DNA of 64,000 bases, taken from positions 186,001-250,000 of the forward strand of contig JAJFKX010000019.1 in the NCBI GenBank assembly GCA_021772985.1. The letters are read 5' to 3'. Within the stretch, counting starts at the first letter, position 1, and each line of letters opens with the position of its first letter. The position numbers and the translations under genes are program-made. Source of the stretch: Gammaproteobacteria bacterium. GTDB lineage: Bacteria > Pseudomonadota > Gammaproteobacteria > Xanthomonadales > Wenzhouxiangellaceae. Below, one piece after another: positions 17,985-28,198 of the stretch. The notes beneath the pieces were generated by a model. It saw only the letters and a program-made list of their open reading frames with translations. It was not told the origin of the DNA and ran no database searches.

Positions 17985-19064
17985 CTATTTGGTCAAATCC
18001 ACATCACGGTTACCCACCGGCAGAAATGCGATCACATGGTTATCGTACATGAATTCCAAACGTTGCCGGCTATCATTAAATCTCAATGCAACTGCTTGAT
18101 CACCTGCAAATTGAACCGCTGCACCTGCATTCATACGCAAGTCATTATTTCCCATATCAATTCCGGCCTGGAATTCACCACGCAACCAGATGCCCCGATC
18201 ACCGGTGGTATTCGGGCCAAATTCCATCCCTGTGCCAAAATAAGCGAGTCCTGGCTTACCGGACAATTTAATGCCGGTCTGCCAGCTGCCATCCATTCCA
18301 GGCTTCCAGAATCGATGCGATTGCGGGAATGGACCGGCCTGAATCTGCATACCTATGTTTCCTGGAAAGCCTTTATTCTGGATGTTCATCCCTACTGTAT
18401 AGGCACCTAATCCGGCTACATCGCGAATTTCGATATTGCTCCCCAGTGTAGTCCCATTGCCCCAGGCATAGCTGTCGACGTGATAACCACTAGCCCAACC
18501 ACTACCACGATTATGCACATTGATATTCGAAGCCACACCATCTCCGCGATCATGATTGGTATCCAAATTTACAAAAAATGTCCAGGGAAATGATAAAGCA
18601 CCCGATGCAACATCATTCTGATGCTGCAGGCTTATCAATGTGTGCGAAAAACCCCTGCCACCCGGATTCGCTGCTTGGTTAAGGCGCCGGTAATCAAGCG
18701 GTGCGTTGATGGGAACGTAGCGTTCCGGATCACCTGTCCCGGCGACCTTGACATCTTTATAAAATGCCGACTGAGGGCCAATGATTTGTGATTGCCAATC
18801 CGGAAATGGAAAAACCATACCCATAGCTGCACCAGCCATCAGCATAATAAATAAAGCTGGATATACCCACCTTTGGTGACTCGGCCTTTGCTCAGGAATT
18901 TTTCTGGTCGACAAAAAAGCCTGCAAAGCGGTACTGGTCACCAAAAGTTTGTTGCCAACGGTAATTGTTTCTAACTGACCTTGATCAATTTCATGATCGA
19001 TATCTTCAATATTTACGCCCAGGTAACTGGCTACTTCCGAAATGTTATACAACATCTTTTTCAT
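17985..19064 (-). CDS. Excisionase-type HTH fused through one membrane helix to a beta-rich tail-spike-like exterior domain
   Basis: This 359-residue protein has an unusual order. Residues 1-52 are a helix-turn-helix of the excisionase/MerR (HTH_17) type: LYNISEVASYLGVNIEDID, then IDQGQLETITVGNKLLVTST and ALQAFLSTRKIP. A membrane helix follows near 66-82 (YPALFIMLMAGAAMGMVFP). The remaining 270 residues are glycine- and asparagine-rich with repeated short strands (NIEIRDVAGLGAYTVGMNIQ, GDRGIWLRGEFQAGIDMG), like phage tail-spike or beta-solenoid proteins, ending with RFNDSRQRLEFMYDNHVIAF. ATG 19064 is chosen because MKK aligns with the start of the paralogue at 23320. It could be a membrane-tethered DNA-binding sensor. 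Function is not established; the fold of the exterior is inferred from composition. Confidence 0.7.
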   Translation of the reverse strand: MKKMLYNISEVASYLGVNIEDIDHEIDQGQLETITVGNKLLVTSTALQAFLSTRKIPEQRPSHQRWVYPALFIMLMAGAAMGMVFPFPDWQSQIIGPQSAFYKDVKVAGTGDPERYVPINAPLDYRRLNQAANPGGRGFSHTLISLQHQNDVASGALSFPWTFFVNLDTNHDRGDGVASNINVHNRGSGWASGYHVDSYAWGNGTTLGSNIEIRDVAGLGAYTVGMNIQNKGFPGNIGMQIQAGPFPQSHRFWKPGMDGSWQTGIKLSGKPGLAYFGTGMEFGPNTTGDRGIWLRGEFQAGIDMGNNDLRMNAGAAVQFAGDQAVALRFNDSRQRLEFMYDNHVIAFLPVGNRDVDLTK

Positions 19065-19089
19065 TAAATATAACCTGGAACCCATACAA

Positions 19090-19133
19090 CATTGCTCAGT
19101 ATGCCCTGCCAAATCTCAACCCAAACTGAACAA
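19090..19133 (-). promoter_or_regulatory. Conserved upstream element of the HTH-membrane gene (copy 1)
   Basis: Two short blocks upstream of the 19064 start recur upstream of the paralogue at 23320: 19090-19103 (plus strand CATTGCTCAGTATG) and 19116-19133 (TCAACCCAAACTGAACAA). Matches to copy 2 are about 13 of 14 and 16 of 18 bases. Conservation outside coding sequence suggests an operator, possibly for autoregulation, or a recent shared origin of both promoters. Confidence 0.5.
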
Positions 19134-19182
19134 GCCCGCATAATTATCGTCATACAATGCAAACTTGGAGGTAATCAATAAC

Positions 19183-19515
19183 ATGAATAGACTCAATTAC
19201 CGAAATGTTGTCTCTGCTGCTCTAATTGCCGGTCTGATACCTGCCTGTACCTGGGTCCCACTTGAAACCCATGGAGCAACTGTTGAGGTGGCAGCTGTAG
19301 ATCAAAACTTGCGCTCCTGTCAGAAACTCGGTGAAACCACCGTTAGTGTTAAAAATAAAGTCTGGATTTATCAACGCAACCGCAACAAGATAGAGCAAGA
19401 ACTGGAAAACCTGGCTCGCAATGAAGCAGCTGAACGAAATGCCGATACCATTCAGGCCATTACACCAGTTAATAATGGTGAGCGGATGTTTGGAATTTAT
19501 GCCTGTTTGGAGTGA
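19183..19515 (+). CDS. DUF4156 family small lipoprotein
   Basis: This is a 110-residue lipoprotein with lipobox LIPACTW (Cys near residue 22). The mature part matches the DUF4156 pattern: a cysteine in SCQKLGETTVSVKNKV, then ELENLARNEAAERNADTIQA, and a final cysteine in FGIYACLE. The family is found in gammaproteobacterial envelopes and its role is unknown. ATG 19183 is chosen because GGAGG lies eleven bases upstream and the signal peptide then begins MNRLNYRN; an in-frame TTG at 19165 would lie before that ribosome-binding site. It is divergent from the HTH-membrane gene, and the conserved element at 19090-19133 lies between them. Confidence 0.8.
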   Translation: MNRLNYRNVVSAALIAGLIPACTWVPLETHGATVEVAAVDQNLRSCQKLGETTVSVKNKVWIYQRNRNKIEQELENLARNEAAERNADTIQAITPVNNGERMFGIYACLE

Positions 19516-19575
19516 ATCGGCAATTCAAACCTGAATTAATACCTGCACTGATCATCACATAACAGCACTCCTTGG

Positions 19576-19593
19576 AACCGTGAAAGCACGGTT
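19576..19593 (+). terminator. Hairpin after the DUF4156 gene
   Basis: AACCGTG (19576-19582), a four-base loop AAAG and CACGGTT (19587-19593) form a perfect seven-base stem about 60 bases past the DUF4156 stop. It is followed by TGTTTGG, so the T-run is weak. It may be an intrinsic terminator or the first stem of the structured segment that follows. Confidence 0.4.
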
Positions 19594-19621
19594 TGTTTGG
19601 TCATTCATAAATATTTCACAC

Positions 19622-19711
19622 CCATGGTTTACCCTAAGGTCGGATGTTGAGAAATCAACATGCTATACATGGATGTACAGCATAACCCTGGTGCAGGATA
19701 AACCTGGATGG
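19622..19711 (+). ncRNA. Candidate structured RNA: closing stem enclosing two hairpins
   Basis: A closing stem pairs 19622-19635 (CCATGGTTTACCCT) with 19695-19711 (AGGATAAACC, three-base bulge, ATGG), with one mismatch. Inside it lie a perfect seven-base hairpin ATGTTGA-GAAA-TCAACAT (19644-19661), whose loop is a GNRA tetraloop, and a second hairpin of GCTATACA (19662-19669) with TGTACAGC (19674-19681) with one A-C mismatch. The result is a three-way junction of 90 bases. I match it to no known riboswitch or RNA family. The strand is assumed from the flanking plus-strand genes. Pairing was done by eye; conservation is untested. Confidence 0.35.
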
Positions 19712-19812
19712 TTAATCAGTTTTCGTGCCAATTCCATGTCTGTTAATAGTTGCATGCTGTGTCTACACAGTTTGCGTGAGTGTGGCTGGGTATCAAAGAA
19801 AGGGTGTTAAGT

Positions 19813-19839
19813 TTAGTAACGGTTTAAAACCATTACTAA
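19813..19839. repeat. 27-base near-perfect palindrome
   Basis: TTAGTAA, CGGTTT and the mirrored AAAACC, ATTACTAA form a near-perfect palindrome about 120 bases before the lipase-like gene. Symmetry of this length suits a dimeric regulator's operator or an RNA hairpin. Nothing in the sequence decides between them. Confidence 0.4.
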
Positions 19840-19956
19840 GCGGTTCTTATTTAACAAAATCGACTTTACCGCTAATAACCATAAACTTGCCAAGGAGGTG
19901 AAGCCACTAATATTCAACTGTGAAAACTTAATATTTTTGAAATGGAGTTTAATGAT

Positions 19957-22407
19957 ATGAAGTATAAAATCGCAGCTGCTTTGCTGTTAATACCATTGCT
20001 GCATCTGCATGCAGCAGAGATTAGCGTAAAATCCTTGTCAGGCGCGCCTGAAGATTTTTCTGACAATCGCTTGCCAGAGCCCATGGAAACCCGCGTTGCA
20101 TCTAATATTTTGCTAATTGATCAACGCACTGTGGAAGCCCGCACCGGAAATAACAACACCCGGTCAACAACAAACTCGGCTTTTAGCGTAACCGAAGGCA
20201 CCGGTTTCAGTCTGGTGCAGGTAACCAGCAGTTATCCTAATTTCGGCCCATCCAGCATCACCGGGCCGAATGGCGCAGTTTACCATTTCAATGGCAGCGT
20301 CATCACCTGTAACTCTGGCCCATGTGACCTCGATCAGGCAGATATACAAATGGAAGCTTTTACCGACCGTCCGGGCGGCGTAATGGTTTTTTCCATTTCC
20401 GGAGGAGAAGCGGTGCCCGGCAGCTGGGGATTATCGATTTCAGATCCGTTAGAACTGCGCAGCACAGTCCAGATGGATTCGATGATCAGTTATGACGAGA
20501 ACGTAGTTGAAATCGTTATTGGTCCGATTGAATGTGATGATAATAGCCCAATCTGCCCAGACCCATGCCCACCCGGTGAGCCATGTATCGAGCCGATGCT
20601 GGGTTTAACTGAAGGTTCAGCGGCAAAATTGAGTGTGTTTGCATCTACCACTAACGATAACGGTAAAAGCAAAATTCAGCCGATCGATATCAATAAACTG
20701 CAGTTAACTGTAGTCAGTTCCGATACACGGCAAACGATACATACAGAAAGTTACGATGCCGCACGTGCAACATCCTTGCCACTCAATGCCAATGGTTTTA
20801 GTCAACTGCGCCTACCAGCATTACCCAGTGGCAAGTATTCAGTTCGTATAGATGTGGAGGGTGAAGTTGAAGGAATAGGCAGCATAGAGCGCACCGCTTT
20901 TTATTTTCTACCTATTATCGAAAAAAAATATCAACTTGCACAGGCTGTACAAACCCAGGTAGTAGACAACAACAGGTTGAAAATTAATCTGAGCTTGGCT
21001 TCATTCGTTAATCAGCATAGCCATGTCTACGCCTATGCCGAAGTTTGGTCGGCAACCACTAATAAACCCATTGCCTGGATTGGTGGTATGACCTATCCGG
21101 AAACTGATCGTAACAATGCTGTCAGTATTCCGTTGATGTTTGACTCTCGCTGGCTGGCGCTGGCCGGTGAGACAGGACATGATTATGTGCTGCGTAATAT
21201 TCGTATACAAGACCCACACACATTCATCCCGATTGACCAATTGGCGGAATTGTCAATGACGGTCAGTCAACTTCCACCCAAGGCTTATCTATCACGCGCG
21301 GAAGTGATAATTGATGACTCTCTGTATTATGGCAAACGCGATATCTCCATTCCTGTTCAGGCCTTGGCCCCTGATCCCGTCAACCGTGGTGCAATTGGTC
21401 CATTTGGAATATTGCTGGTGCATGGCTGGTGCTCCAACCCTGCATGGCCTGCCGGTGATTTTTTCAACGGTAACCCAGGCGGCACTGCAGTTTTCAGCGA
21501 TCCGCTAACAAGCCGATCGCATGATGCATTTGCACAACGAATCCGCACCCAAGGTGATATGTTTTTTACTGATTCATTTAGTGTTGTTGCACATAGCCAG
21601 GGTGGTGCTGCGGCTACACATTTGCGGGCTTTTTATAACAGCGGGCTGGATAATAGCCAGGCGCCGCGCCCCATTCAAACCATGGGCACACCATATGGCG
21701 GCAGCACCTTGATGGATTTATATGTTGCTTCGGGACCACTGGGCTGGCTGATCGGGATCATTATTACCGGCGGCTGCGAACCGCAATTCAGCCTGACCAC
21801 CCTGGGCAGCGTACTATGGCGCTCGAGCATTCCAAACCATATCCGGGACGATGTTTATTTTTACCGGACCCGGCATCGCCGACCCAGCAATTTTATCCAA
21901 CGGCTGCAGTTCTGGCGCTGGAACTGCAAAATCACATCCTATGTAATTCCGCGTTCAGATGACGGGGTGGTATCACATGTTCAGGGACGCTTCTCGGGGG
22001 CCAATGATATGGGTATCACAGACCGAGAATGTCATACTGATAATATGAAATATAACGATCAAAAAGACAATGCAGCGCGCAACTTGATTATGGACTTCGA
22101 AGGTCGCCCACCGCCACCACCTCCTTTGAATGCCCGTTGCTTTGTAGACTGGATATGGCATACCGGCGGGCCTGACGGAAATGGCTATTTTGAATACTGG
22201 GTGGATGCCAGCAATAGTGTTGCCGGCGCATTCCCAATCACCAGTTATACGTGGATCAACGATGGCGCTACCGGCAACCCAACCAGCAATGACAGGTTCG
22301 GGCCACTGTTTCCAGGCTTGCCAGGCCAGGCCAGTTCTTATGTTATACAGGTACGGGTAACCGACACATCAGGTGACTCCGATACTGCCACATGCTGGGT
22401 TCCTTAA
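19957..22407 (+). CDS. Secreted alpha/beta-hydrolase, lipase-like, with C-terminal PKD-like domain
   Basis: This 816-residue exported protein has a signal peptide (MKYKIAAALLLIPLLHLHAA). Residues up to about 460 form beta-rich domains of unknown type, with a proline- and cysteine-rich link (ICPDPCPPGEPCIEP). The hydrolase domain follows: ILLVHGWCSNPAW forms the oxyanion region, Ser547 in VVAHSQGGAAATHL is the nucleophile, and a His in DDGVVSHVQGRF may complete the triad. Alpha/beta hydrolases of this kind cleave lipid or other esters; the substrate is unknown. A PKD-like end (YTWINDGATGNP, then RVTDTSGDSDTATCWV) follows PPPPPP. ATG 19957 is chosen over 19942 because GGAG lies nine bases before it. 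Confidence 0.75.
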   Translation: MKYKIAAALLLIPLLHLHAAEISVKSLSGAPEDFSDNRLPEPMETRVASNILLIDQRTVEARTGNNNTRSTTNSAFSVTEGTGFSLVQVTSSYPNFGPSSITGPNGAVYHFNGSVITCNSGPCDLDQADIQMEAFTDRPGGVMVFSISGGEAVPGSWGLSISDPLELRSTVQMDSMISYDENVVEIVIGPIECDDNSPICPDPCPPGEPCIEPMLGLTEGSAAKLSVFASTTNDNGKSKIQPIDINKLQLTVVSSDTRQTIHTESYDAARATSLPLNANGFSQLRLPALPSGKYSVRIDVEGEVEGIGSIERTAFYFLPIIEKKYQLAQAVQTQVVDNNRLKINLSLASFVNQHSHVYAYAEVWSATTNKPIAWIGGMTYPETDRNNAVSIPLMFDSRWLALAGETGHDYVLRNIRIQDPHTFIPIDQLAELSMTVSQLPPKAYLSRAEVIIDDSLYYGKRDISIPVQALAPDPVNRGAIGPFGILLVHGWCSNPAWPAGDFFNGNPGGTAVFSDPLTSRSHDAFAQRIRTQGDMFFTDSFSVVAHSQGGAAATHLRAFYNSGLDNSQAPRPIQTMGTPYGGSTLMDLYVASGPLGWLIGIIITGGCEPQFSLTTLGSVLWRSSIPNHIRDDVYFYRTRHRRPSNFIQRLQFWRWNCKITSYVIPRSDDGVVSHVQGRFSGANDMGITDRECHTDNMKYNDQKDNAARNLIMDFEGRPPPPPPLNARCFVDWIWHTGGPDGNGYFEYWVDASNSVAGAFPITSYTWINDGATGNPTSNDRFGPLFPGLPGQASSYVIQVRVTDTSGDSDTATCWVP

Positions 22408-22482
22408 TGTCCTGGTCTTAGCAGTAACTGTAACACCACAATCAGCCATTGACCGTGGTATGTTGATGAGCTGAGTTGTAGT

Positions 22483-22517
22483 AAAGCACGGGCTGATGTG
22501 ACCTGCCCGTGCTTTTT
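22483..22517 (+). terminator. Intrinsic terminator of the lipase-like gene
   Basis: AAAGCACGGGC (22483-22493) pairs perfectly with GCCCGTGCTTT (22505-22515) across an 11-base loop and runs into TTTTT. The stem has A and T runs on both sides, so it may work in both directions. It lies 75 bases past the lipase-like stop. Confidence 0.85.
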
Positions 22518-22595
22518 AATATGAACATGATGCACGATTCCGCGTAATAAAATCTACGGAAACCCGGTCGCCATAGCCTATGGTATAAAAATGGG

Positions 22596-22973
22596 TTGAG
22601 TTATGGTGCTATTAGTAATGACTGGACCAAGACCGTGAGCCGGAAACATATAAGAATCATTCATACACGCTCAAATACCCTGCTTGCAGATGGCCCTGTT
22701 GGTTGGGGCATCATGCCATTTGAAGGGAATTACTATATTAGTAAGAAAAACCTGAAATCGAATGGGTTTCGGGTTAATTATGTTCCCGGGTTTTGTGCTT
22801 ATAAATTTTTCTATGTATGGCTGGATTTCATTACAACAGATGGTGTAATTAATAAAAATGTAGGCTGGAAATACTGGTTACCTAACCCATTGTTACCGTT
22901 CATATGGTTCCGTGTAGCGGTCCCCGCAGTAGACTCCGAAATACATATTGAAGAATATTTCAGTGATAATTAA
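22596..22973 (+). CDS. Small AT-rich gene, possibly DUF427-like
   Basis: This open frame of up to 125 residues starts at TTG 22596; a GTG at 22635 would give a shorter protein beginning at SRKHIRIIHTRSNTLL. No ribosome-binding site is clear for either. The order of features (a strand with LLADG, then YYISKKNL, then a segment with FCAYKFFYVWLDF, then a late VAVPAVDSEIH) recalls the DUF427 fold, in which a similar C-x-Y-K segment occurs, but the match is weak. It is rich in aromatic residues and noticeably richer in A and T than its neighbours, a sign of transfer. It lies just past the terminator of the lipase-like gene and is convergent with the short HTH-membrane paralogue. Confidence 0.4.
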   Translation: MSYGAISNDWTKTVSRKHIRIIHTRSNTLLADGPVGWGIMPFEGNYYISKKNLKSNGFRVNYVPGFCAYKFFYVWLDFITTDGVINKNVGWKYWLPNPLLPFIWFRVAVPAVDSEIHIEEYFSDN

Positions 22974-23047
22974 TTTGCTGCTCTTTTTCTGTGTAAATGC
23001 TGGTACCGCTGATAGTTATATCTATATGCATACAACATTCTCAGCAA

Positions 23048-23320
23048 TCAGGTACCGACAAAAGGAAAACTCAGATTTATTGCCAATCCAGATATTACAA
23101 CAGTCGCCATAGTCGCATATCCCCACCAGCGTGATACCAGCTTTGGCTCAGGTATTTTTCTTGAAATCAAAAAATCCTGCAGTGCATCACTGGTAATCCG
23201 TACTTTTGTACCGATAGCGACAATCTGCAAGTAGCGCTGATCAATTTCATAATTGATATCCTCAATATCCACTCGTAAATAACGAGCAACTTCCGGAATG
23301 GTGAATAGTGCTTTTTTCAT
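23048..23320 (-). CDS. Short paralogue of the HTH-membrane protein, lacking the exterior domain
   Basis: This 90-residue protein aligns with the first 90 residues of the gene at 17985-19064. The excisionase-type helix-turn-helix is shared (LFTIPEVARYLRVDIEDIN, then IDQRYLQIVAIGTKVRITSD and ALQDFLISRKIPEP), followed by one membrane helix (YATMATVVISGLAINLSFPF). It ends two residues after the shared SFPF/VFPF boundary, exactly where the exterior domain begins in the long form. It could be a natural short form (membrane-anchored DNA-binding protein) or a truncated duplicate. AGGA precedes the ATG at nine bases. The upstream element at 23336-23388 is shared with the long paralogue. Confidence 0.7.
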   Translation of the reverse strand: MKKALFTIPEVARYLRVDIEDINYEIDQRYLQIVAIGTKVRITSDALQDFLISRKIPEPKLVSRWWGYATMATVVISGLAINLSFPFVGT

Positions 23321-23335
23321 CGCCGATTATCCTGT

Positions 23336-23388
23336 CATTGCACAGTATGGCTAGTATAACTCTGCAAAGTTCAACCCAGGCTGAACAA
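23336..23388 (-). promoter_or_regulatory. Conserved upstream element of the HTH-membrane gene (copy 2)
   Basis: Blocks 23336-23349 (CATTGCACAGTATG) and 23371-23388 (TCAACCCAGGCTGAACAA) match those at 19090-19133. The second block on the minus strand reads GTTCA-N8-TGAAC in this copy (23386 to 23369), an inverted repeat suitable for a dimeric binder; the other copy keeps it only partly. It lies 16 to 70 bases upstream of the ATG. Confidence 0.5.
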
Positions 23389-25044: not shown

Positions 25045-25485
25045 TTATCGATTGGATTGAGCAGTAACCGTCCGCCACCGTGATTCGGCACGTTGGATCA
25101 GTTGCTTCGGATTCATTTGCCAGGTTTCCCGAGCAGCTGGAAAAATAAATAAATAAAGACGGCCGTCATGTATTGCCCAAGCTTCAGGGTTAATCGGAAT
25201 CGATGAACCATGGGCCATGGTTAATGAACAAAACCCACCAAACTGTGGTACATAACGTTCTGGATCGTCGCGAAACTGTTCGAGGTTTTGCTGACTGGAA
25301 AACTGCCAGCTGACTCCACCCCATTGGGTCGCGAACTCAAGCTTGCCGGGAACCGGTTGCTGTTGGGTAAAATAGGCCACCACATCAAAGCCTCTCACTG
25401 CCACACCGTCAATCGCAAACACCGGCTGCACGGCATTTGCCCAGCTGCTAATCAATATTGCGAGAATCAAAACAACAACCTTCAT
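25045..25485 (-). CDS. Exported YHS-domain protein
   Basis: This 146-residue exported protein starts at ATG 25485 with AGGAG before it (signal MKVVVLILAILISSWANA). The YHS domain runs from GVAVRGFDVVAYFTQQQPV to about residue 120, including WQFSSQQNLEQF and VPQFGGFCSLTMAHG. YHS domains are small folds often linked to metal binding or found beside metal transporters; a specific role is not known for these exported forms. It is a paralogue of the next upstream gene (25530-25994). The mature protein shows a single conserved Cys in the GGFC segment. Confidence 0.8.
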   Translation of the reverse strand: MKVVVLILAILISSWANAVQPVFAIDGVAVRGFDVVAYFTQQQPVPGKLEFATQWGGVSWQFSSQQNLEQFRDDPERYVPQFGGFCSLTMAHGSSIPINPEAWAIHDGRLYLFIFPAARETWQMNPKQLIQRAESRWRTVTAQSNR

Positions 25486-25529
25486 TGCGTCTCTCCTAGA
25501 GATTGCTGCTGTTGTTGGCGTCGTTGCAC

Positions 25530-25994
25530 CTACCATTGGTGATAGCGATCGATAGCACTTGAATAAGCCGCCAGCCCACGTTCAATATTGATATCCGGGT
25601 TATACCGCCAGGTCTCAGTTACCTGCTGATTTTGATTCAAAACCAGTTGGCCGTTATGAATCGACCAGGCTTGCGGATCGGATGGAACTAATGCACCATG
25701 CGCAACACCTAAGCCACAGAATCCACCGAACATTGGCTGATAACTTTCCGGAGAGCGGATAAACAGGTCACGATGTTCCTGACTGGAAAAATGCCAATCC
25801 ACGCCGCGCCACCGGTAAGCATGTTCTGGTTTGCCCGGCAAGGGTTTTTGGTCAACAAAATACGCGACCACATCATAGCCGTGCAAAGCCACACCGCCCG
25901 GGGAGTAAACCGGTTCTTTAGCCGCAATAGCAGCAGGGCTTAATAAACTGCTGATAAAAATAATGAGTAATGAAATACCACGAGCAAAGTCCAA
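25530..25994 (-). CDS. Exported YHS-domain protein, first gene of the cluster
   Basis: This exported protein of about 154 residues starts at TTG 25994. That start is supported by a perfect AAGGAGG six bases upstream and gives a clean signal peptide (LDFARGISLLIIFISSLLSP). The longer open frame to 26129 would overlap the divergent regulator and has no ribosome-binding site. The YHS domain shows GVALHGYDVVAYFVDQKPLP, WHFSSQEHRDLF and MFGGFCGLGVAHG, as in the next gene. It is divergent from the ToxR-type regulator with only about 90 bases between the starts, which suggests that the regulator controls this operon. Confidence 0.8.
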   Translation of the reverse strand: MDFARGISLLIIFISSLLSPAAIAAKEPVYSPGGVALHGYDVVAYFVDQKPLPGKPEHAYRWRGVDWHFSSQEHRDLFIRSPESYQPMFGGFCGLGVAHGALVPSDPQAWSIHNGQLVLNQNQQVTETWRYNPDINIERGLAAYSSAIDRYHQW

Positions 25995-26083
25995 CGAAGA
26001 CCTCCTTAATAATTGCGCCACAGCCGGTAAGATTGCAGAACAGCGCTGAATTAGCTTGAGAATTAGTTGCGAGATTGTTGCGA

Positions 26084-28198
26084 ATGTCCAAACCAAGTGA
26101 TCCCCCCCTCCCTGGCAACAATGCGTCACAACCGCTGGGAGCAGTAACTAAAATCGCGCCTATAAAAATTGGCGTATGGACATTGGATCCAGGCCTGGGA
26201 CGAATTAGTCATCAGTCCGGCGAGCATAAACACCTGACACCTAAAACCTTGCAAGTATTGCTGGCTTTATTGCAATACCCGGGCACTACAATCACCCGTA
26301 CAGAACTGTTGGAAAGCATCTGGGGCTCCACTTACCCCAGTGATTATGTGGTTTCACGGGCAATTGCAGATTTGCGCTCGGCTTTTGGCGAGGAAGCCAA
26401 GTCGGCTGGTTACATTGAAACGGTACCCAAAATCGGCTACCGGCTGATCGCACCAGTATCACCTGTTATGGTCGTAACTACTCAGCGCTGGCAGGGTTGG
26501 TACCTGACTGCTGCATTACTGCTGACTGCATCTGCATTGTTGTTGGTGATGCCAGGCGGTAGCAATACCCAAATTGACTGGCCGGTGCCAATACCGATCA
26601 CCTCTGGACCGGGTTTGGAGCAACAATCACGGATTGCTGCACAGGGAAAATGGCTAATCTACGCCTCTCTGGAACGAGGTGATAGCGATTGGAACATCTA
26701 TCGCCAATCGCTGGCTGGTGGCGTGCCTGAACCGGTTGCGGTTAGTGAAGCAGTTGAATACGGTCCGGCAATATCACCGGATGCCAAAGAAATAGCCTAC
26801 GTACGTCTGGTAGACCAACACTGCGAAGTGGTATGGCAAGCCATGCATCAAGGAGAACCGCAAACTCTAACCCCATGCACTACCAAATTCCCCACCTTTG
26901 TAGACTGGTCACCTGATGGACGGCAAATCGCCTTTACCAGCCCCGCTGATACTCTGCAGGATCGCCGATCAATACACCTGGTGGATAAAACCAGCGGCCT
27001 GGTAGTCGCTTTGAGTCATGGCGTTTCCGAAGATGGCACGGATTATTACCCAAGATTCTCGCCAGATGGTCGGCAGCTGGCTTTTTTACGTGGCGTGCCT
27101 AGACCAGATCACCGTTCCCATATCTGGGTTGTCGATCTTGATACCGGCAAACAAAACCGGATCACAGCTAATGATTCAACCAATGCAGGCCTGGCTTGGT
27201 TGGACTCAGGGCACTTGTTGTATGTTGTTCGTGATGGTGGCAGATTGGTGACAAAACTGGCTGACCTGAAAACCGGTCAACTGGAAACACTACCATTACG
27301 TGATCTTTTTCAGCCAGACTTTCACGCTGCCAGCAAATCTCTGACCATGTCTAAAGTAAATAATGTCAGTGATTTGATGGTATTGGAATTGAGTGACAGA
27401 AAAGCCAGCTTTATCGCTGACTCAACCTTCAACGATTGGGATGGAGAACTTTCACCCGATGGCCGTTGGATGGCCTTTGTTTCTACCCGCACCGGCAGTA
27501 ACCAGTTATGGCTGGCGGCAGTCGAAACCGGGACATTTCGACAATTAACCCAGCTTGAGAATGTAAATATTCAATCTCCACGCTGGAGTCAGGACTCAGA
27601 AACCCTGCTATTTAGTGTCGATCAAAAAAATCAACAACAACTATTTACCACACACATTATCACTGGCAACACTCAGGCTCTCGATACAGGAAATTTTGCA
27701 GCCAACTCGGCTCGCTGGCTGCCCGATAGTGACGACATTGTATTCAGCTGCCAGGATGATCGCGGTTGGAAGCTGTGCCGGGTAATGTCTGAATCTAATG
27801 AAGTTCGGATAATGCTTGATATGGCTGCTTATGATCCGATGGTTGACCGACAAGGCCAACAAATCTACTTCACACGCGATCAACCTGGACTCTGGGCGTT
27901 CAATATCGAAACCGAGGCAGTGGAATTAATTTGGGCCGGTCTACCATCCACTCTGGGGCCAGGATGGACGGTCCACCAGGAGTCGATTTATTACATCCGC
28001 TCATTAACACAACCTGATGTAGCGCAAATCGAACGCCGTGAACTGGCAACGGGCAATACCACCATCCTGTATCGCGGTATTATCTCAAGTTTTGATCTCA
28101 GCTTAAGCATTAACCAAAATGGTACCCAATTGGTATTCCCCAGCTGGCGGGCAGCACAGGACGATATCGTACTGATTAAACCGTTTGATCCAATCTGA
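26084..28198 (+). CDS. ToxR/CadC-type membrane transcription regulator with TolB-like propeller
   Basis: This 704-residue protein has an OmpR-type winged helix at about residues 25-115 (LTPKTLQVLLALLQYPGTTI, then ELLESIWGS, VVSRAIADLRSAFG and IETVPKIGYRLIAPV). A membrane helix follows near 135-155 (LTAALLLTASALLLVMPG). The rest is a periplasmic PD40/TolB-like beta propeller with repeated SPDG blocks (FVDWSPDGRQIAFTSPA, YPRFSPDGRQLAFLRG, GELSPDGRWMAFVSTR). ToxR and CadC-type proteins bind DNA while anchored in the membrane and sense outside signals directly. It is divergent from the YHS operon. A paralogue with the same order lies at 56715-58829. ATG 26084 is preferred over TTG starts at 26075 and 26078. 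Confidence 0.85.
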   Translation: MSKPSDPPLPGNNASQPLGAVTKIAPIKIGVWTLDPGLGRISHQSGEHKHLTPKTLQVLLALLQYPGTTITRTELLESIWGSTYPSDYVVSRAIADLRSAFGEEAKSAGYIETVPKIGYRLIAPVSPVMVVTTQRWQGWYLTAALLLTASALLLVMPGGSNTQIDWPVPIPITSGPGLEQQSRIAAQGKWLIYASLERGDSDWNIYRQSLAGGVPEPVAVSEAVEYGPAISPDAKEIAYVRLVDQHCEVVWQAMHQGEPQTLTPCTTKFPTFVDWSPDGRQIAFTSPADTLQDRRSIHLVDKTSGLVVALSHGVSEDGTDYYPRFSPDGRQLAFLRGVPRPDHRSHIWVVDLDTGKQNRITANDSTNAGLAWLDSGHLLYVVRDGGRLVTKLADLKTGQLETLPLRDLFQPDFHAASKSLTMSKVNNVSDLMVLELSDRKASFIADSTFNDWDGELSPDGRWMAFVSTRTGSNQLWLAAVETGTFRQLTQLENVNIQSPRWSQDSETLLFSVDQKNQQQLFTTHIITGNTQALDTGNFAANSARWLPDSDDIVFSCQDDRGWKLCRVMSESNEVRIMLDMAAYDPMVDRQGQQIYFTRDQPGLWAFNIETEAVELIWAGLPSTLGPGWTVHQESIYYIRSLTQPDVAQIERRELATGNTTILYRGIISSFDLSLSINQNGTQLVFPSWRAAQDDIVLIKPFDPI

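Follow-up and report, generated by a model that had tools for sequence, protein, structure and literature searches.

A lineage-specific membrane protein pairing a winged helix that has lost the DNA contacts of BldC with a conserved, predicted periplasmic domain

Two related genes on the minus strand of contig JAJFKX010000019.1 (assembly GCA_021772985.1, a gammaproteobacterium of the Wenzhouxiangellaceae) encode a long form and a short form of a membrane protein with an excisionase-type helix-turn-helix (HTH) head of the HTH_17 class. Both lie in a stretch of 64,000 nucleotides (positions 186,001 to 250,000 of the contig), here called the window, in whose numbering coordinates are given. We read the long form, with a probability of about 0.5, as a lineage-specific single-pass inner-membrane protein whose head, devoid of a DNA-binding face, docks or self-associates in the cytoplasm, and whose beta-rich domain works in the periplasm; its layout is RodZ-like, although it is not a RodZ. 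The long open reading frame (ORF), with its ATG at 19064 and its stop at 17985 (17985..19064, minus strand), encodes 359 residues; the first start given by the ORF caller was a TTG at 19112, and the ATG was used. Profile scans, a structural model, hydropathy and alignment divide the protein into the head (residues 1-55; 18900..19064), one membrane helix (residues 67-85; 18810..18866) and a conserved, beta-rich ectodomain (residues 86-359; 17988..18809). The short form (23048..23320, minus strand, 90 residues) comprises the head and a membrane helix only (residues 71-89; 23054..23110).

The profile matches of the two heads are individually modest. Both fall below the gathering score of 27 of Pfam HTH_17 (PF12728; long form E 0.0016 and 19.1 bits, short form E 6.7e-5 and 23.5 bits) and below the cut-off of NCBIfam TIGR01764 'excise' (5.7e-4 and 2.5e-5). 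Matches to HTH_17 are commonly labelled excisionase or transcriptional regulator. The fold is accepted for the window pair because of its family context: each of the nine family members has an HTH_17 match at E<=1, the lowest E being 2.6e-11, the head of the orthologue in genome G010 reaches 48 bits, above the cut-off of 27, and the modelled fold lies close to Xis and BldC. In the AlphaFold2 (AF2) model, the block means of the predicted local distance difference test (pLDDT) are 81-90 over residues 1-50. The solved folds nearest to the modelled head are Xis of phage Pukovnik (Z 8.1, 1.9 Å over 54 residues) and BldC (Z 7.9, 1.4 Å over 50 residues). The head matches Xis by profile at E 4e-6, and a profile of the full family, searched against solved structures, finds Xis at E 0.018; two beta-galactosidase sequences found by that search at E 0.033 were judged to be chance matches. 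By profile and model, the head is a MerR/Xis-like (excisionase/BldC-type) winged helix. Other proteins, too, combine HTH_17 with a hydrophobic stretch: two of 30 HTH_17 ORFs reach a Kyte-Doolittle mean of 1.6, one of which belongs to this family. Small HTH_17 proteins with a C-terminal hydrophobic stretch and an ordinary basic recognition helix occur at loci L068, L110 and L113.

The recognition helix of the family differs from that of DNA-binding relatives. In BldC, the side chains of the recognition helix that touch DNA are reported to be Lys26, Thr27, Thr29, Arg30, Trp31 and Lys33, and the R30A substitution alone abolishes saturable DNA binding (PMC5859096). With BldC as the template, in the register of the profile alignment, none of these six residues is kept in any of the nine family heads. 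Thr27 is replaced by Asp and Trp31 by Glu in all nine, and the long form of the window carries E, D, D, H, E and D at the six positions. Among 28 control HTH_17 domains, which are annotated, not proven, as DNA binders, the position of Thr27 holds Thr in 22 and Asp in none, and a base is present at position 26, 30 or 33 in 20. The 11-residue recognition helix is acidic in every family head (mean net charge -3.3, range -5 to -1; residues 18-28 at 18981..19013 in the long form and 23237..23269 in the short form), and the control helices have a mean net charge of +1.2 (range -1 to +3). The control set retains 25 of 30 HTH_17 loci (L070 and L071 were moved to groups of their own; L085, L087 and L089 were dropped as near-copies) and adds L027, L029 and L053; L044, L047, L048 and L054 duplicate kept rows, and L049-L052 were unused. 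The family heads thus resemble BldC and phage Xis in fold, but differ from BldC in the loss of all six contacts and in their fusion to a membrane helix. Because the residues that relatives use to hold DNA are missing, the head more likely grips protein than DNA.

The membrane helix is supported by hydropathy in both proteins, with best 19-residue Kyte-Doolittle means of 1.96 at residues 67-85 of the long form and 1.69 at residues 71-89 of the short form. It is followed by 274 residues in the long form and by a single residue in the short form. The flanks of the helix are net basic on the inner side and net acidic on the outer side in all seven long forms scanned, which by the positive-inside rule predicts an N-in/C-out topology. 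A single-pass inner-membrane protein with the head inside and the ectodomain in the periplasm is therefore predicted from hydropathy and flank charges. An earlier, sequence-only reading of this DNA had already recognized an HTH_17-type head and one membrane helix in both proteins and a short form that ends at the membrane boundary, and these points are borne out here; its placing of the ectodomain at the cell exterior is not, since the predicted topology faces the periplasm and not the surface.

The fusion of the three parts is conserved. The source genome (4.85 Mb, 62 contigs) has two family matches, which are the long and short forms of the window. A full-length long form is present in seven of 43 genomes of the bacterial family and in eight of 299 genomes of the order, namely the same seven and G217, which belongs to another family; long forms occur in Wenzhouxiangella and relatives. 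Head, helix and ectodomain occur together in all eight long forms found, that of the window included. The ratio of nonsynonymous to synonymous substitution rates (dN/dS) is 0.11-0.20 for four long-form pairs, with dS saturated for the pair with G001, and the YN00 estimate gave no result for three of five pairs tried. These values point to purifying selection on the long form, and together with the constant association of the three parts they show that the fusion is more than chance. Among 369 genomes drawn from the class, no ectodomain was found outside the source genome at E<=0.001, with at most seven candidates scored among the matches listed. A match in G043 (E 0.007) is a 638-residue ORF that looks like a TonB receptor by eye and was taken as chance. 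The literature searched, on HTH_17 and excisionases in connection with membranes and on SPFH proteins in connection with HTH domains, with few subscription journals covered, yielded no description of the family.

The ectodomain, not the head, is the best-conserved part of the long form. Over the eight long forms, mean pairwise identity is 60% in the ectodomain, 40% in the head and 36% in the helix region. Hydrophobic residues in the ectodomain alternate at lag 2 above the shuffle threshold (z 3.6 versus 2.92), and glycine spacing stays below its threshold (best lag 13, z 3.0 versus 3.34). Two AF2 single-chain models of the ectodomain have low confidence, which might also come from an obligate oligomer. 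A BFVD search with the second, unreliable model gave query TM-scores of at most 0.27 for the 50 matches listed, and the ectodomain profile retrieved a single match, at E 0.2, among solved structures. Relatives of the ectodomain occur in five of 297 genomes of a second family, which we take to be Xanthomonadaceae, all five in one genus; comparison with hhalign gives E 4e-17 and 30% identity. In these proteins the ectodomain follows one membrane helix, and an N-terminus with heptad-spaced hydrophobic residues, coiled-coil-like by eye, stands in the place of the HTH_17 head. A weaker relationship, covering the C-terminal half of the ectodomain (hhalign probability 94%, E 8.5e-8), is seen in proteins of about 250 residues from genomes of the Wenzhouxiangellaceae; these proteins, at loci L028, L030, L031 and L033-L036, have an N-terminal hydrophobic stretch. 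Pfam gave nothing over its cut-offs for the four relatives scanned.

A head of the same kind is found at the C-terminus of seven SPFH proteins (L041, L042, L043, L045, L046, L107 and L108), five from the order and two from a further family of the class. Scans of two of them show Band_7_1 and HTH_17 over the cut-offs in both; the other five were assigned by eye. None of the six BldC contact residues is kept in any of the seven. In a tree of 42 heads built from all columns, the family heads and the SPFH heads group together (support 90/83). A likeness of sequence is claimed here, and not common descent. The SPFH proteins share the acidic, contact-free HTH_17 domain with the long form but carry it C-terminally on a cytoplasmic scaffold that has no ectodomain. 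In Bacillus subtilis, the SPFH protein YdjI is reported to interact with PspA (PMC8581546).

The short form appears to be a duplicate of the long one. Its head and the long head share 56% identity, versus 24-31% between the long head and the heads of G001, G010 and G217, and the two are sisters in the tree of 42 heads (support 99/95). Between 19161 and 23050 there is no remnant of an ectodomain, the best tblastn piece being 8 residues at E 0.52. Both copies seem to be kept, as the pair has a dN/dS of 0.19 at a dS of 1.97. The shared upstream element noticed in the sequence-only reading is confirmed as a 24-bp element (19110..19133 and 23365..23388, minus strand) with 83% identity between the two genes; it has two copies in the genome, and the reversed control has none. 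Of 134 fetched loci, 11 contain its 18-bp core; all 11 come from the source genome (G000) and none from another genome. The element has outlasted nearly saturated synonymous sites and therefore probably matters, as a common promoter part or as an operator. The short form is found only in the source genome among the 43 genomes of the family and the 299 of the order. Between the two genes lies an 821-residue protein (19942-22407, plus strand) with a signal-like start and weak matches to a hydrolase (E 0.18) and to PKD (E 0.74). A tandem pair of mutually similar small proteins, of YHS type by eye only, is encoded at 25045-26129 (minus strand).

These features suggest the following arrangement. 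An excisionase-type winged helix that has lost its DNA-binding face would serve as a cytoplasmic docking or self-association head, and the membrane helix would carry the strongly conserved beta-rich domain on the periplasmic side, likely the working end. The short paralogue may have arisen by duplication of upstream element, head and anchor, and would occupy the same cytoplasmic partner without bringing a periplasmic domain; a role as competitor, proposed in the sequence-only reading for a regulator, is possible. A docking or self-association part is favoured by the acidic recognition helix, the loss of all six contacts, the similar SPFH heads, the higher conservation of the ectodomain and the coiled-coil-like segment that replaces the head elsewhere. 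HTH domains that hold protein are known from other systems. The HTH of RodZ is reported to bind MreB and not DNA, with rods still forming when most of the periplasmic part of RodZ is missing (PMC6946637), and SepH binds FtsZ via its HTH (PMC7968930). The long form resembles RodZ in its cytoplasmic N-terminal HTH, basic juxtamembrane stretch, single membrane helix and beta-rich periplasmic domain. It differs in that the HTH of RodZ is of the Xre type and that of the long form an HTH_17 winged helix, and in that the periplasmic part, largely dispensable in RodZ (PMC6946637), is the best-conserved part of the long form. The RodZ domains HTH_25 and RodZ_C have no match in family proteins at E<=1, and the source genome has its own RodZ (with a RodZ_C match) on another contig, before an ORF that is HisS-like by eye.

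In three of the eight loci, those of G010, G034 and G064, the long form adjoins a gene for a BLUF protein with a C-terminal membrane helix on the same strand (L010:8746-9303, minus; L013:6735-7310, minus; L015:636-1205, plus), with gaps of 118, 91 and 73 bp, respectively. Two of these neighbours were scanned and match Pfam BLUF at E 4.5e-27 and 1.1e-28. As these three genomes contain a single BLUF match of this kind apiece, adjacency by chance is estimated to be very unlikely. The arrangement is not one inherited order, because the BLUF gene lies downstream of the long form in G010 and upstream in G034 and G064. Co-transcription is not claimed for G064, since an inverted repeat is seen by eye in its 73-bp gap. 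Other shared neighbour genes link only the source genome with G001 and G010 with G018. This survey is rough, as ORF picking favours antisense ORFs in GC-rich loci and hid the long forms of G034 and G064. In E. coli, the MerR-like repressor BluR is reported to be bound at its N-terminal domain by BluF, which frees it from DNA in the light (PMC3509220); this sets a precedent for a MerR-type head as a docking site. As in E. coli, a BLUF protein is encoded beside a protein with a winged helix of the MerR superfamily. The family differs in that both proteins are membrane-anchored, the two BLUF proteins scanned have no EAL match, and the head has lost its DNA contacts, whereas BluR binds DNA (PMC3509220). 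The tail-anchored BLUF protein is thus a candidate partner of the head in some species, this window not being among them.

Several findings weigh against a docking head or against its link to BLUF. In the seven orthologues the wing carries a net positive charge (+2 to +6, compared with 0 and +1 for the window pair and -1 to +5 for controls), so weak or unspecific DNA binding by the head is possible. Glu at the position of Trp31 also occurs in three of the 28 controls, and the two proteins might themselves use the shared upstream element as their operator. The grouping of family and SPFH heads is lost when the recognition-helix columns are left out (6 changes), and it is not rejected either (p-AU 0.14, approximately unbiased test). 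Five of the eight loci lack a BLUF neighbour: the window has none, nor do the loci fetched from G001, G018, G026 and G217. Genomes G001 and G018 lack BLUF matches at E<=1e-5 altogether, and of the 43 family genomes 30 contain BLUF matches, mostly without a long form.

The alternative with most in its favour is a membrane-tethered one-component regulator, whose periplasmic domain would sense a ligand and whose head would bind DNA close to the membrane, perhaps at the shared element, with the short form as competitor; where BLUF adjoins, it could be a membrane version of BluF-BluR. This is possible, although we consider it doubtful. The HTH_17 fold, the N-in single-pass topology and the basic wing of the orthologues fit it. 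So does the 24-bp element, kept at both genes despite a dS of 1.97, as do the BLUF neighbours, which recall a system whose MerR-type partner binds DNA. A DUF4156 gene (E 9.3e-15; 19165-19515, plus strand) diverges from the long form in the window, and a relative is likewise placed in G001 (L009:10500-10826), an arrangement that would also suit a regulator. DNA binding by the head, on which such a regulator would depend, is made doubtful by the loss in all nine heads of all six contacts, given that substitution of Arg30 is by itself enough to abolish saturable binding by BldC. The head is moreover less conserved than the ectodomain, and no regulon is visible, because the element has only two copies in the source genome and none in the fetched loci of others. 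Regulators of the ToxR/CadC type share the predicted plan, in which one membrane helix joins a cytoplasmic winged helix at the N-terminus to a periplasmic domain, but they carry the OmpR-type Trans_reg_C domain, and the two window proteins match only HTH_17 at E<=1. A CadC/ToxR-like gene, whose Trans_reg_C domain the same scan detects, lies in the window about 2.8 kb from the short form (26075-28198, plus strand; Trans_reg_C E 1.7e-15, a hydrophobic stretch and PD40 propeller repeats) and offers a yardstick for a true tethered regulator. The sequence-only reading had suggested that the protein could be a surface-sensing regulator of a new class. In simple terms its outline holds, as an HTH is predicted and homologues carry the helix and the fusion in the same order; DNA binding by the head is the doubtful part, given Asp in nine of nine heads versus Thr in 22 of 28 controls, the missing contacts and the net-acidic helix. 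The reading was too narrow in taking OmpR-type winged helices to be the only ones in tethered regulators, as a survey of transmembrane regulators reports more than 100 types of DNA-binding domain, 11 of which make up about 91% (PMC10269533).

An unlikely explanation is that the head is only an oligomerization or stop-transfer cap, which helps the ectodomain to assemble as an oligomer and binds no partner. A cap would fit the genus in which a coiled-coil-like N-terminus precedes the same ectodomain, and BldC heads are reported to pack head to tail on DNA, with Trp31 in the packing interface (PMC5859096). However, the family heads have an invariant Glu at precisely this place. Asp21 and Glu25, both invariant, suggest that a surface is kept and not only a core, and the short form keeps head and anchor at a dN/dS of 0.19 although it has no ectodomain to assemble.

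More specific, and improbable as a whole, is a relay of light to the periplasm. Here the tail-anchored BLUF protein would dock on a MerR-type head that is dead for DNA binding, and the signal would pass to the periplasmic beta-domain and not to a promoter. On this view the long form and SPFH scaffolds would have the acidic, contact-free HTH_17 head in common as a docking domain in its own right, the short paralogue would act as a head-only damper, and another protein would replace BLUF where the neighbour is missing, as in this window.

A domesticated phage part, in which an excisionase-like head carries a tail-spike-like exterior derived from phage, is highly improbable: the glycine-rich, strand-like sequence, the excisionase-type head and one outside relative with a weak PHROG match (E 0.02, function unknown) recall phages, but 50,697 phage records and 72,556 plasmids contain nothing that matches the ectodomain at E<=1, PHROGs has no match to it for seven members, pattern scans of viral_contigs matched 31, 50 and 70 stretches with none confirmed as a relative, and the protein is under purifying selection. 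When phages were searched by tblastn with the long protein, the only matches were to the head region, in three Thermus phages at E 0.4, and phage records held no match for the coiled-coil relative or for one of the 250-residue relatives. The likeness to tail-spikes suggested in the sequence-only reading thus finds no phage sequence match, and the ectodomain models are of low confidence.

If the head of the long form docks protein, the labels excisionase and regulator would mislead for this family and for the HTH_17-tailed SPFH proteins. Other candidates would then be flagged by a residue rule that requires Asp in place of Thr27 and no basic residue at positions 26, 30 or 33 (BldC numbering), and thanks to the BLUF neighbours one version of the docking idea is directly testable by light. 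The long form would represent a second plan besides RodZ, in which a DNA-binding fold in a membrane protein links the cytoplasm to a periplasmic beta-domain.

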